Position numbers and translations under genes: made by a program | From: an archaeon | GTDB lineage: Archaea; Nanobdellota; Nanobdellia; Woesearchaeales; GW2011-AR9 | Assembly: GCA_023259115.1 (NCBI GenBank) | Contig: JAHFQW010000014.1 | Span: 1 to 43,730, forward strand | DNA: 43,730 nt | Reading direction: 5' to 3' | Shown here: positions 3,932-40,891 of the stretch, in pieces | How positions within the stretch are numbered: the stretch's first letter is position 1 | How the letters are laid out: every line of letters begins with the position of its first letter | The notes under the pieces: model-generated | Told to the model about the DNA's origin: nothing | Database searches by the model: none | The model's input: only the letters and a program-made list of their open reading frames with translations

Positions 3932-4117
3932 ATGACGCAAACGATTAAAAAAGCAGTAGTATTTTTGAACATGGTTTTATTGGTTATGACTGCTTCTTGG
4001 GTACTCTTTGGGTTATCAAAAGGTATTGATACAGTGGAGTTGATTTATAATTATATTTATGTGATAATTGCACTTGTTAGCGCTTTACTGAATATCAAAG
4101 TTATTACGGAACCATGA
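3932..4117 (+). CDS. Small two-span membrane protein (61 residues)
   Basis: This protein has two hydrophobic segments, about residues 8-27 and 39-55, separated by a short polar loop containing GIDTVE. It starts one base after the stop of the preceding 37-residue membrane protein. Its TGA overlaps the transketolase ATG (ATGA, 4114-4117). That tight coupling argues it is real and co-expressed with transketolase. No family is recognised. It might tether a metabolic enzyme or act in transport, but nothing in the sequence decides. Confidence 0.65.
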   Translation: MTQTIKKAVVFLNMVLLVMTASWVLFGLSKGIDTVELIYNYIYVIIALVSALLNIKVITEP

Positions 4118-5016
4118 AAAAAATTACAAATATCACACAATTAGAATTGATTGCAAATAATATTCGTCGAGATATTATTACGTCACTGGTCTGTGCCGGA
4201 TCAGGACATTCTGGAGGACCACTGGGGATGGCAGATATTTTTACGGCGTTGTATTTTAATGTGCTGACACATAATCCACAGAAGCCGAAGTGGGAAGGAA
4301 GAGATAGATTAGTTTTGAGTAATGGGCATATTTGTCCAGTTCTGTATGCGACGATGGCACAGGCAGGATACTTTTCTCGAGCGGAGTTGAAGACGTTGCG
4401 CAAGCTTGGTTCAAGGTTACAAGGCCATCCACATCGGGAAGCGTTACCTGGCCTTGAGACAACGTCGGGACCATTGGGTTCAGGGTTATCGCAAGCATGT
4501 GGGATGGCGTATGCGCTCAAAATGGATGGACAAGCAAATAAAGTGTTTTGTTTGATGTCGGATGGGGAGCATAATGAGGGGAATACGTGGGAGGCGGTGT
4601 TGTTTGCAGCGAAGTATAAGTTAGGAAATGTAGTTGCGGTATTAGATCGTAATTATATTCAAATTGATGGGCGAACAGAGGATATCATGCCACTGGAGCC
4701 GTTGGCGGCGAAATATAGAGCATTTAATTGGGATGTGGTAACAATTAAAGGGAATGATATGAGGGAAGTTTTGAGAGCGTTGAATGGGGCGAAGAAGCAT
4801 ACAGGAAAGCCATTGATGATTATTGCGCATACAATTCCGGGCAGAGGAGTGTCGTTTATGGAGAATGATTATACGTGGCATGGCAAACCGCCAACAAAAG
4901 AACAAGGAGAGATTGCACTTGCGGAGTTGTGTAAGATTGAATCGAAGTTGCAAGGGAAGAGATGTTTATTATGCCGATCTATACATGAAAAATGTGTGTG
5001 TGTGGAATCACGATGA
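4114..5016 (+). CDS. Transketolase, N-terminal (TPP-binding) subunit
   Basis: This subunit of 300 residues carries the thiamine diphosphate-binding half of a split transketolase, which moves two-carbon units between sugar phosphates in the pentose phosphate pathway. Visible motifs are GHSGGPLGMADI (31-42), TTSGPLGSGLSQACGMA (117-132), and SDGEHNEGNTWEA (149-161), the TPP/metal motif with GDGE read as SDGE. Met1 overlaps the preceding stop, and its own stop overlaps the C-subunit start (ATGA), so the two subunits are coupled. The last 20 residues form an unusual tail with CxxC and CxC (Cys 284, 287, 294, 296), which looks like a small metal site and is not a standard transketolase feature. Confidence 0.93.
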   Translation: MKKITNITQLELIANNIRRDIITSLVCAGSGHSGGPLGMADIFTALYFNVLTHNPQKPKWEGRDRLVLSNGHICPVLYATMAQAGYFSRAELKTLRKLGSRLQGHPHREALPGLETTSGPLGSGLSQACGMAYALKMDGQANKVFCLMSDGEHNEGNTWEAVLFAAKYKLGNVVAVLDRNYIQIDGRTEDIMPLEPLAAKYRAFNWDVVTIKGNDMREVLRALNGAKKHTGKPLMIIAHTIPGRGVSFMENDYTWHGKPPTKEQGEIALAELCKIESKLQGKRCLLCRSIHEKCVCVESR

Positions 5017-6002
5017 CTGAATTGAGCAAGTTGAAGAAATTGAATAAAGCATTGTATCTAGATTTTTCTTTGGAAAAAGTGCCGACACGTAATGGCTATG
5101 GTGATGGGTTACTGGATTTGGGCAAGAAGAATAAAGAAGTGATGGTGTTATGTGCGGATTTAACGGAGTCTACGCGGGTGGAGAAGTTTGCACAGATGTA
5201 TCCAAAACGATTTGTGGAAATTGGCGTGGCGGAGCAGAATTTAGTGACGGTGGCGTCAGGGCTTGCGGCGATGGGGAAAATTCCGTTTGCGTCATCGTAT
5301 GCGTGTTTTTGCCCGGGACGATGCTGGGAGCAGATTCGCACTACAATTTGTTATAATAATGTGAATGTGAAAATTATTGGGGCGCATGCAGGAATTTCGG
5401 TTGGTCCAGATGGAGCGACACATCAGATGCTGGAAGATATTGCGCTGATGAGAGCGTTGCCAAATATGATGGTAATTGTGCCATGTGATTATTGGCAAAC
5501 GCGCAAGGCGACGATGGCATTGGCGGCCTACAAAGGTCCGGGGTATATGCGTTTTGCGCGGGAGAAGACGCCACAGATGACAACAGTTAAGACGCATTTT
5601 GAGATTGGAAAAGCACAGCTGTTGAAAGAGGGAGTGGATGTATGTATTATTGGCGCGGGACCGGTGGTGTTTGAGTGTTTAAAAGCAGCGCAACTTCTGG
5701 AAGAAAAAAATATAAATGCTATGGTGATTAATTGTCATACAATTAAGCCGCTCGATGAGAAGATGATTTTGAATGCGGCTCGGAAATGTAAACGAGTGGT
5801 GACGGTGGAAGAGGCGCAGATTGCAGGAGGATTAGGTGGCGCGGTAGCAGAGTTTTTGTCTGAAGTATATCCTGTACCAATTAAACGTGTTGGGGTGCGA
5901 GATCATTATGGGGAATCGGGCAGTCCAGAGGAATTACTAGAGAAGTTTGGGTTTAGCGCGAAGCATATTACACAAGAGGTTTTACAACTAGTACGGAGGT
6001 GA
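5013..6002 (+). CDS. Transketolase, C-terminal (pyrimidine/C domain) subunit
   Basis: These 329 residues complete the split transketolase. The pyrimidine-binding domain has the catalytic-glutamate motif GVAEQNLV (71-78) and HAGISVGPDGATHQ. The C-terminal domain has TVEEAQIAGGLGGAVAE and RVGVRDHYGESGSPEELL. The start at 5013 overlaps the upstream TGA in an ATGA, matching the previous junction. An in-frame ATG 21 nt upstream is less likely. It works as a heteromer with the upstream subunit. Its stop codon lies inside a strong GGAGGTGA ribosome site for the next tiny gene. Confidence 0.93.
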   Translation: MTELSKLKKLNKALYLDFSLEKVPTRNGYGDGLLDLGKKNKEVMVLCADLTESTRVEKFAQMYPKRFVEIGVAEQNLVTVASGLAAMGKIPFASSYACFCPGRCWEQIRTTICYNNVNVKIIGAHAGISVGPDGATHQMLEDIALMRALPNMMVIVPCDYWQTRKATMALAAYKGPGYMRFAREKTPQMTTVKTHFEIGKAQLLKEGVDVCIIGAGPVVFECLKAAQLLEEKNINAMVINCHTIKPLDEKMILNAARKCKRVVTVEEAQIAGGLGGAVAEFLSEVYPVPIKRVGVRDHYGESGSPEELLEKFGFSAKHITQEVLQLVRR

Positions 6003-36011: not shown

Positions 36012-37205
36012 TCATTCTTCATCACTTAATAATTTATGCAATCCGCTCAATGCTTCGGCTCTTGCCATCATTCCTGCTTCTTGGGCAATCTCTGCTGCTT
36101 TTTTTAAACTTGGTGTACAACAACTGCAGCTAGATATTCCCTTACTTTCATATTCATCAATGGCTTTGGTATACATTAGTTGCGCTTCTGTTTCTTTGCC
36201 AAAACGACGTAAGATACGTGCGGCAATTTCAGGTTTTTTTTGTGAATACGTATCAATGGCTCTGGGAAATAACTGTTGGACTTTCTCTCCCATTTTTTCT
36301 CTTTGAGCAATCTGTAATGCACTATCTAAATGACCTGCTCTTTCATATAATTCTAGGGCCCAATCACACATGCCAATTTTATCTGCGATTTCTGCGGCTT
36401 TGTCTAATTTGTTGTCTGTTTCATATTCTCCTATTACTTTGAAACTAATGCGTTTCGCTCTTTCTGTTAATCCTGCTTTAGTTGCTACTATAATTGCTTT
36501 TTCAAAATCTTTTGCTCGCTCATAATTGGAAATGGCTTTTTCAAACTCCCCTACTTCTTCGGCAATTTCTGCAACTGCTCTGAACCATTCTGCTTTTTCA
36601 TAATACTGCATTGCTTCTTTGTTCATTCCTAATCTGCGGGCGATATGTCCTGCCCTTCCATATTCTCTCTTTTGTTCCTGTTCTTTCATTTGTACTATTT
36701 CTTGTTCTCTTTTTTTCTCTTGTAATTGAGAGATTTCTTCGGTCATGCCTTGTTCTTGTGCAAAGTGGAGTGCAGAGGTGATATTTGTTTCTTTTTCTAA
36801 ATATTTCTTAAAATATTCCTGCGCTTTTTTTTGATTTCCTGCAGCCTTTGCCAGAAGTCCTCGTGTTTGGAGATTATGTGCTTCACTGACGTAATGCTCA
36901 TAAATGGGTTCATGTTTTTCTTTATATTCAAATACCAACACATACAATTGCTGTGCTTTGTCTTTCATGCCTGCAATTCCTGCAATCCCTGCAGCAGAAT
37001 TTACATAATTGATATTATTTTCTGTTTTGCTTTTTTGTATATATGATTCTATGGTGGTATCTATATATCTCTGAGGGATTGGAACTGTTCTTGCAAGTAA
37101 TTCAATACTCTTAATTCTGTTTTCATCTGAGTTTAGATTATCTAATATTTTTTCTAAATCGGTTGTGGGTATATCGTATTTTTTATTAGGTATTTTATTA
37201 GGCAT
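36012..37205 (-). CDS. TPR-like alpha-solenoid repeat protein
   Basis: The 397-residue protein consists of repeated helix pairs of about 30-38 residues with the pattern A-x-IA-x-x-x-G-x-x-x-x-A-x-x-YE-x-A (for example AEIAEEVGEFEKAISNYERA and AAEIADKIGMCDWALELYER). A Glu/Lys-rich coiled stretch lies near residues 155-185. Such solenoids mediate protein contacts, and DPANN genomes often encode several. A CSCC cluster near residue 359 is unusual. No partner is suggested by context, as it is transcribed alone. Confidence 0.85.
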   Translation of the reverse strand: MPNKIPNKKYDIPTTDLEKILDNLNSDENRIKSIELLARTVPIPQRYIDTTIESYIQKSKTENNINYVNSAAGIAGIAGMKDKAQQLYVLVFEYKEKHEPIYEHYVSEAHNLQTRGLLAKAAGNQKKAQEYFKKYLEKETNITSALHFAQEQGMTEEISQLQEKKREQEIVQMKEQEQKREYGRAGHIARRLGMNKEAMQYYEKAEWFRAVAEIAEEVGEFEKAISNYERAKDFEKAIIVATKAGLTERAKRISFKVIGEYETDNKLDKAAEIADKIGMCDWALELYERAGHLDSALQIAQREKMGEKVQQLFPRAIDTYSQKKPEIAARILRRFGKETEAQLMYTKAIDEYESKGISSCSCCTPSLKKAAEIAQEAGMMARAEALSGLHKLLSDEE

Positions 37206-38782: not shown

Positions 38783-39082
38783 TTAAGAAGGTTGTGGTGG
38801 TGCAAAGACATAGTCTACTGTGGCTTTTGCTAAAATATGTAATGAATCAAAGAGAGGAATTTTAATATCTTTTTGGGTAATGGCTAGAGGCAACTCAGTA
38901 CACCCAAGTACTACGGCTTGTACTTCCTCAAATGTATTAGCGTAGCTTGCGACATCATTTTTTGTTTTTTGTTGAATTGTACCACCCATTACTTGTTCAA
39001 TGAGCAGGGTAATTTTTTTTTGTTCGTGAGGTGAGGTTCTCTTCTTTATATTTACTTCAGAGGAGTAATCTTTTGGAAATGT
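38783..39082 (-). pseudogene. Truncated aspartate/glutamate racemase remnant
   Basis: This frame keeps the C-terminal third of an Asp/Glu racemase: AVVLGCTELPLAITQ with the second catalytic Cys, then IPLFDSLHILAKATVDYVF. It stays open 5' as far as 39082 (SPHEQKKITLLIEQVMGG), where a stop interrupts it. The N-terminal domain with the first catalytic Cys is absent. The break falls at the promoter of the ClpX-like gene, so insertion or recombination probably destroyed the racemase. A short expressed fragment from the ATG at 38989 is possible but would not be active. Confidence 0.75.
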
Positions 39083-39089
39083 TTATAAA
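39082..39089 (+). promoter_or_regulatory. TATA box of the ClpX-like gene
   Basis: TTTATAAA is centred 27 nt before the ATG at 39113. A GAGGAG ribosome site also lies 6-11 nt before the ATG. The box coincides with the break of the racemase remnant. Confidence 0.6.
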
Positions 39090-39112: not shown

Positions 39113-40891
39113 ATGGACTTGTTTACATCTAGGGATAAGAGACAGAAATCTGAATTAGAGAGAGTGCTCCATTCCCTTCCTCTCAGCGAGATCGAACTGT
39201 CATATGATGGGTATAGAGACGCACGCTTAGAAAAAGCTCATTCTAAAGTATATGTACTTCGGATAAATGATAGCTTAGACGCATATATTCCTCTTGGTGA
39301 AAATCAACTAACGATTTCGATAGGATTGAGCTACAAATCACTCTTTTTTTCAACGACATATGGCTTGCGAATAACTATTCCTACAGAAAATTTAGAGGTA
39401 TTGGAACATGTAGTAAACTTACAAAACTTACAAAAAGAGAAAAAGCATAAAAGTAAAATCTATCTCCCTCTCCAGCTGTCCAATTTTGTCGTGAGCCTTA
39501 GTGATAGTAATGATATCCCTTTGATAGGTACTCCTTTTCCGGCAATGGGTATTGAAGGATCGCAAGGAGTTTATCCACTCCTTCTGGTTCATACTTCTAT
39601 CTCTAACAAAAATAGGGGTTATGGTATCGATCTTCAAGACAAAAGTATAAAACTCTACAAACATACTCTTGCACCCACAGAGATGCGTTCTGTGATGCAG
39701 AGTTTGCAGAGGAAAACAAATCGTTCAACAGATCAGACCAAGACAGGGGAAATAACTATAGAAGGAGCGGTTAAAGAAGATGGAGAGAAAAGAGTAGAAT
39801 CTGCCGAAAATGCGTCTCAAAGGATTGTAGTTGTACCATGGCAAATAAAGAATTCCCCCACAGATCAAGAGATCAACTGGCGAGAACCAACATCAATTGT
39901 GTCGTATCTTGATGAGTATGTTGTGGGACAGCGTGATGCCAAGAGATTGATTGCCGTGGCGTTCTCAAATTATATGACAAAAGTTCAAACGAAAAATGAA
40001 GATATATACAAAGAGAATGTATTACTCATTGGGCCGTCGGGTGTGGGAAAAACATATATGATTTCGCTGTTGGCAAAAAAAGCAGCTCTACCAATGGTTC
40101 AAACAAAATTAACCGGGAAATCAAATGAGGGATACAAAGGCGAGAATCTATCGACAGTGTTTGAACAAATGAGAGCTATGACCAAAGAGGAAGCACCATA
40201 CGGAGTAATATTTTTGGATGAGATTGATAAATTAGCTCGTGATGAATCGGGGAGTGGAAATGCGTTTGGCCCACGATTGCAAGATGAATTGATTGGCTGG
40301 CTTGAGGATGCTACTATTATGGTTGAGACTAAAAAAGAAAATAAACCATTGAATACGCGAAATATTTTATTTGTGACCGCAGGGGCTTTTGGGCATTCTA
40401 CCAAAGATGATGGATTAACAGAGATTATTCAGAAGAGATTAGGATACGGACAGAAAATAGGATTTGGCATACAACAAGAAAGAAAAGATGGACAGGAGGA
40501 GTATGTGCTCTCAAAAGTGCGTCCAGAAGATTTAATTATGTATGGATTAAAAACGGAATTGGTGGGAAGATTACCTTCTTTGGGAGTACTTCATCCACTC
40601 ACGCTTGAGGATAAAGTGAGAATTTTAACTCAGACCAAAAAGTCTGTTCTTAGAAATTATACTCAATTGCTTTCGTTGAAAGGATATGAAGTGCAAATAG
40701 GCCAGGCAGTGCCGGAAGTGATTGCAGGATGTTGCCCCGCAGAGACGGGAGCGAGAGCACTACATGCAGTGTGTAATGATTTTTTTACAAAGATATTATT
40801 TGAACCAGCACGTTATGCGGATGATAAAAAGGTAATTAAATTAACGGCAGAATTGGCACGAGAACTGATAACGTTGTATAGAGGAGTTTGA
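39113..40891 (+). CDS. ClpX-like AAA+ unfoldase with novel N-terminal domain
   Basis: Residues 255-592 form a ClpX/HslU-class AAA+ module. It has YVVGQRDAKRLIAVA (269-283), Walker A GPSGVGKT (307-314), pore loop GYKG (340-343) in place of GYVG, Walker B VIFLDEIDK (365-373), TAGAF (422-426), IGFG (449-452, the ClpX loop that docks on ClpP), ELVGRLP (482-488) and sensor 2 TGAR (545-548). The zinc-binding N-domain and RKH loop of ClpX are missing. Instead about 250 residues of unknown, strand-rich sequence and an acidic linker precede the module. ClpX is bacterial and rare in archaea. No ClpP gene is in the window. The gene abuts a broken racemase, suggesting acquisition. Confidence 0.88.
   Translation: MDLFTSRDKRQKSELERVLHSLPLSEIELSYDGYRDARLEKAHSKVYVLRINDSLDAYIPLGENQLTISIGLSYKSLFFSTTYGLRITIPTENLEVLEHVVNLQNLQKEKKHKSKIYLPLQLSNFVVSLSDSNDIPLIGTPFPAMGIEGSQGVYPLLLVHTSISNKNRGYGIDLQDKSIKLYKHTLAPTEMRSVMQSLQRKTNRSTDQTKTGEITIEGAVKEDGEKRVESAENASQRIVVVPWQIKNSPTDQEINWREPTSIVSYLDEYVVGQRDAKRLIAVAFSNYMTKVQTKNEDIYKENVLLIGPSGVGKTYMISLLAKKAALPMVQTKLTGKSNEGYKGENLSTVFEQMRAMTKEEAPYGVIFLDEIDKLARDESGSGNAFGPRLQDELIGWLEDATIMVETKKENKPLNTRNILFVTAGAFGHSTKDDGLTEIIQKRLGYGQKIGFGIQQERKDGQEEYVLSKVRPEDLIMYGLKTELVGRLPSLGVLHPLTLEDKVRILTQTKKSVLRNYTQLLSLKGYEVQIGQAVPEVIAGCCPAETGARALHAVCNDFFTKILFEPARYADDKKVIKLTAELARELITLYRGV

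Follow-up and report, generated by a model that had tools for sequence, protein, structure and literature searches.

HslU docks through its C-terminus, and a C-terminal hydrophobic-Tyr-X (HbYX) tail is the signature of docking on the proteasome, being also the textbook tail of PAN and Cdc48. Yeast Mcx1 is a ClpX motor located in a compartment without ClpP; it has no ClpP partner, lacks the IGF motif, and is thought to act only as an unfoldase (PMC10886707). No previous description of ClpX in DPANN or Woesearchaeota was found in the open-access literature.

The window analyzed in the present study, i.e., the whole stretch of 43,730 nucleotides, carries a gene that an initial annotation had read as a ClpX-like unfoldase with a new N-terminus, possibly transferred and re-tooled. 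According to the explanation that we consider probable, its product belongs to a separate archaeal clade, the ClpX-type AAA+ unfoldases of which function independently of ClpP and select their substrates through the N-domain. Its anatomy, the tree, and the gene content of the host genomes provide good support for a ClpP-independent unfoldase bearing an N-domain specific to its clade.

Anatomy of the unfoldase gene

The ClpX-type large and small AAA+ domains, Walker A, Walker B, and sensor 2 are all present in the unfoldase (Table 1), the ELVGRLP motif lies at residues 482–488, and the catalytic motifs are retained in nearly all members of the family. The ClpX-class, re-tooled AAA+ module of the initial annotation was borne out, with its motifs correctly read and with ClpX providing the best curated matches. 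Among the curated profiles, those for ClpX scored 212 and 191 bits, that for HslU scored 120 bits, and the remainder scored at most 26 bits; the ClpX scores are far under the curated cut-offs of 359 and 371 bits (TIGR00382 and NF003745), reaching approximately half of them.

Table 1 Coordinates of the unfoldase gene and its parts in the window
Feature	Residues	Positions	Strand	Remark
TATA-box-like TTTATAAA, putative, archaeal type		39082..39089	+	~28 nt upstream of the ATG; read by eye
Whole gene (ClpX-type AAA+ unfoldase carrying the clade-specific N-domain)		39113..40891	+	592 aa + stop
N-domain	1–204	39113..39724	+	conserved only inside its own family
Variable linker	205–250	39725..39862	+	pLDDT <50
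ClpX-type AAA+ module	251–587	39863..40873	+	
Walker A GPSGVGKT	307–314	40031..40054	+	
Pore-1 loop GYKG	340–343	40130..40141	+	GYVG in ClpX
Walker B VIFLDE	365–370	40205..40222	+	
IGFG	449–452	40457..40468	+	corresponds in position to the IGF loop of ClpX
Sensor-2 motif TGAR	545–548	40745..40756	+	
C-terminal tail LYRGV	588–592	40874..40888	+	strict HbYX in close relatives

In the phmmer alignment with ClpX 6wr2, the IGFG of the unfoldase pairs with the IGFG of the ClpX docking loop; the motif had correctly been described as intact. The AF2 model of the motor gave TM values of 0.65–0.81 (normalized to the target) against ClpX structures, and it placed IGFG between two short strands with moderate confidence (block means of 76 and 63). 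In the same alignment, the RKH-loop stretch (GGRKHPQQE in 6wr2) was replaced by a shorter, unrelated stretch, and no match to the zinc-binding domain was detected in Pfam, a different, family-conserved N-domain standing in its place; the absence of both elements had already been claimed, and it holds.

The N-terminal 250 residues, previously called unrecognized, indeed gave no match in Pfam and no family match in the PDB, where the best hit (E = 0.31) was to antibody chains. The N-domain profile (A2) matched in 20 of the 353 genomes of the host order, once in each, and always in the same open frame as the motor (529–615 aa); within these 353 genomes, the N-domain is only ever fused to this motor. 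Identity between the window protein and its close family members was 20–26% in the N-domain versus 59–73% in the motor, and this much faster divergence is as expected for a part that selects substrates. We infer that the N-domain replaces the zinc domain and RKH loop of ClpX as the chooser of substrates or adaptors. Structure prediction, which had been proposed for this region, returned models of low confidence, with a mean pLDDT of 39 for the N-domain modeled alone and block means of 26–59 in the full AF2 model, the viral ClpX rows of which do not cover the N-domain.

Two other origins or roles were considered and rejected. A viral origin was dismissed, as ClpX proteins of phages and of IMG/VR match the motor, not the N-domain; a tblastn search of phages and plasmids with the N-domain of the relative L057 returned nothing, and the N-domains of relatives had no match among phages, plasmids, or viral contigs. 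A role as a defence gene was likewise discarded, the PADLOC matches being to generic AAA+ proteins at 32 bits at most.

Full-length homologues in 24 other genomes, together with the putative archaeal-type TATA box upstream, argue that the open reading frame is not a chance one. Both flanking genes lie on the opposite strand, and no conserved neighbour gene was found among family members, so an operon partner was rejected; this lack of neighbours, combined with the promoter-like sequence of its own, is consistent with a free-standing machine. In a genus-mate, gatD and its small neighbour are kept in synteny and the unfoldase region is not; the gene is absent from the genus-mate G001 (96% complete).

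Some other features of the window deserve mention in their own right. A 68-residue Asp/Glu racemase-like fragment, perhaps a decayed gene, lies between the unfoldase and nitroreductase genes (38783–38989, minus strand), and a 397-residue TPR-type protein, with the IF140/IFT172 TPR domain as its best Pfam match (E = 2e-07), is encoded at 36012–37205 (minus strand). Transketolase is present as two adjoining ORFs corresponding to its N-terminal and C-terminal halves (4114–6002, plus strand).

Distribution and phylogeny of the family

Homologues were sought in the host order (353 genomes), in its phylum (a sample of 371 genomes), and in a second order (103 genomes). The family comprises 25 full-length members, the window protein included, spread over 25 genomes that all belong to a single archaeal class; a further member (L073 in G041) is cut by a contig end and is not counted among the 25. 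In the tree rooted with a ClpB outgroup, the members group together (100/100) at the end of a stem of 1.27 changes per column, located beside and not inside bacterial and phage ClpX; the tree leaves the deepest branchings among HslU, ClpX, and the family unsettled. A larger tree agreed, and in it the family clade also took in L073, which is truncated, and L077, a tandem protein. The AAA+ tree called for by the initial annotation places the protein in its own clade beside ClpX, neither with HslU nor inside the bacterial ClpX clade. Other ClpX-like proteins of the class (L087, L089, L092, L175, L080, L081, L076, and L077) carry differing long N-terminal extensions, and L077 contains two motor domains in tandem.

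The gene tree is unrelated to the taxonomy of the hosts. The proteins closest to the window protein come from other taxonomic families (L057 in f80 and L059 in f79), clustering by host family on the gene tree does not exceed that seen after shuffling (f1: 8 changes against a shuffled mean of 8.4), and the family is patchily distributed within the archaeal class. This mismatch could be explained by transfer among archaea, or by old paralogy followed by many losses. The word "transferred" in the initial annotation is thus partly apt, in that the gene tree ignores host taxonomy inside the class; a bacterial donor is not demonstrated, because the AAA+ module forms its own clade and is not nested in bacterial or phage ClpX.

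The host genome (1.57 Mb, 96% complete) is archaeal, as indicated by GatD and TrmB in the window and by two 20S subunit genes (at G000:C33 and C22) and PAN- and Cdc48-like ATPases elsewhere; its small size would fit a DPANN-type lineage. Bacterial contamination of the assembly, or recent transfer of a bacterial ClpX, was considered as an alternative, and contamination does exist in the data set: contig C24 of the G069 bin (L045) carries ClpP with a zinc-finger ClpX and a T9SS-sorted protein, a locus that is probably of bacterial origin. However, the window contig also encodes TRM1 and a factor of the IF2 type that contains EF-Tu domain 4, in addition to the archaeal GatD and TrmB, the family clade stands outside bacterial and phage ClpX, and near-complete archaeal genomes (G065 and G029) carry other members on large contigs, so this account is very improbable.

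Missing ClpP, retained IGF loops and proteasome-type tails

True ClpP, as defined by TIGR00493, was found only in G069 and G031, both of which lack the N-domain; in G031, the gene adjoins a trigger-factor-like ORF (identified by reading). Among the family genomes to which the same profile was applied, none yielded a ClpP. No ClpP was detected by PF00574 in 26 genomes (those of the 25 members and G041), the matches being only proteins of ~300–360 aa at 19–28 bits, and the match in the host genome looks like an SppA-type protease with an N-terminal membrane segment, judging by a reading of its sequence. Near-complete genomes are among those without ClpP, namely, G065 (3 contigs, 100%) and G386 (100%); several others are draft bins, and the absence is therefore strong only in aggregate. 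The ClpP-like partner encoded elsewhere, one of the two options raised in the initial annotation beside docking on something else, is not supported. Since ClpP was found in no genome with the unfoldase, the motor would act alone or with another partner, possibly the archaeal proteasome.

The IGF loop is nevertheless a conserved island: entropy at G450 and F451 is 0.53 bits versus mostly 2.5–3.6 bits at the surrounding positions. An IGF-like triplet occurs in 19 of the 25 members; the other six have changed or lost it, the tree requiring five or more such changes. This conservation speaks against the favoured explanation, since it suggests that docking on a partner of some kind persists in most members; selection seems to maintain a contact at the IGF face of the ring in the majority of them, despite the lack of ClpP. 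L068 (G322) has lost the IGF loop by deletion but ends in RIGF at its C-terminus, possibly by coincidence.

A ClpP-fold protease missed by the profiles could be the partner that these retained loops hold. The retention of IGF amid variable surroundings points in this direction, as does its lack in Mcx1, which has no ClpP partner (PMC10886707), but PF00574 and TIGR00493 gave nothing beyond the SppA-like proteins, no neighbour gene is conserved, and the IGF loop was repeatedly changed within the family itself, which makes such a protease improbable.

The proteasome is the other candidate. The 20S proteasome is present in all 24 family genomes tested (24/24), and strict hydrophobic-Tyr-X ends occur in 7 of the 25 members (LYG, LYG, LYA, MYA, LYK, LYN, and LYK). 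The background frequency of strict HbYX ends is 0.93% of archaeal proteins (PMC11475706), and locally it was 8 of 237 ORFs; at this local rate, the chance of 7 in 25 is ~1e-5 by hand arithmetic, a value that exaggerates the evidence because all seven members belong to one subclade. The window protein (P0001) belongs to the same subclade, and its tail, LYRGV, is not strict HbYX; in L036 (LYVS) and L068, LY is likewise followed by extra residues. The HbYX-type tails of close relatives and the repeated loss of IGF are both invisible in the window alone.

These tails allow the supposition that the subclade of the window protein moved its motor from ClpP to the 20S proteasome by means of the HbYX tail, so that 20S would have a third ATPase in addition to PAN and Cdc48, with the IGF loops perhaps as a second contact. 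This proposal, which refines the favoured explanation rather than replacing it, is possible but somewhat unlikely. Related tails are carried by the other ATPases of the same genomes: in this lineage (L180–L209), PAN mostly ends in hydrophobic-Phe-Gly (LFG, MFG, FFG, and IFG) and Cdc48 in YFG, YYG, or similar, unlike the textbook HbYX. Moreover, no PAN was detected in two genomes with HbYX-tailed members, G386 and G236. On the other hand, the seven strict tails are not independent, LY may be structural given the extra residues in P0001, L036, and L068, there is little linker separating the last helix from the tail, and tails of this kind are lacking in most of the family at large. The fuller version, in which a ClpX motor unrelated to PAN and Cdc48 is re-docked on 20S by HbYX with its own recruiting N-domain and with IGF as a second contact, is rather unlikely.

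Proposed action and comparison with known systems

For the favoured ClpP-independent unfoldase, the family to which the motor belongs suggests that the protein would assemble as a hexamer and hydrolyze ATP, with the GYKG pore loop gripping the substrate and pulling it through the central pore, and that the clade-specific N-domain would pick substrates or adaptors. The hexamer might then act alone as a remodeler, in the manner supposed for Mcx1, or it might serve as a cap feeding the 20S proteasome. We lean slightly towards stand-alone remodeling for the family as a whole and keep the proteasome cap in consideration for the HbYX subclade; hand-over of the chain to 20S is, overall, a tentative possibility. 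If the motor docks on 20S, it would exemplify an unfoldase that has changed its protease, and if it works alone, it would provide a natural test of the role of the IGF loop without ClpP. Either reading brings a putative substrate-selection domain that matches no Pfam or PDB family and was found only with this motor.

With bacterial and mitochondrial ClpX, the unfoldase shares the AAA+ module, Walker A and B, the pore loop, sensor 2, the IGF position, and the fold; it differs in lacking the zinc domain and the RKH loop, in its 250-residue new N-terminus, in its separate clade, and in host genomes without detected ClpP. HslU is a sister AAA+ family matching the motor at the above-mentioned 120 bits, but the tree does not group the family with HslU, and the long HslU I-domain is absent from the unfoldase. 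PAN and Cdc48 of the same archaea co-occur with 20S and have C-terminal docking tails resembling the HbYX tails of the subclade, whereas the unfoldase belongs to a different AAA+ lineage and their tails mostly end in Phe-Gly. Mcx1 offers the likeness of a ClpX motor that is likewise found where ClpP is lacking, but it has no IGF motif, which most members of the archaeal family retain.
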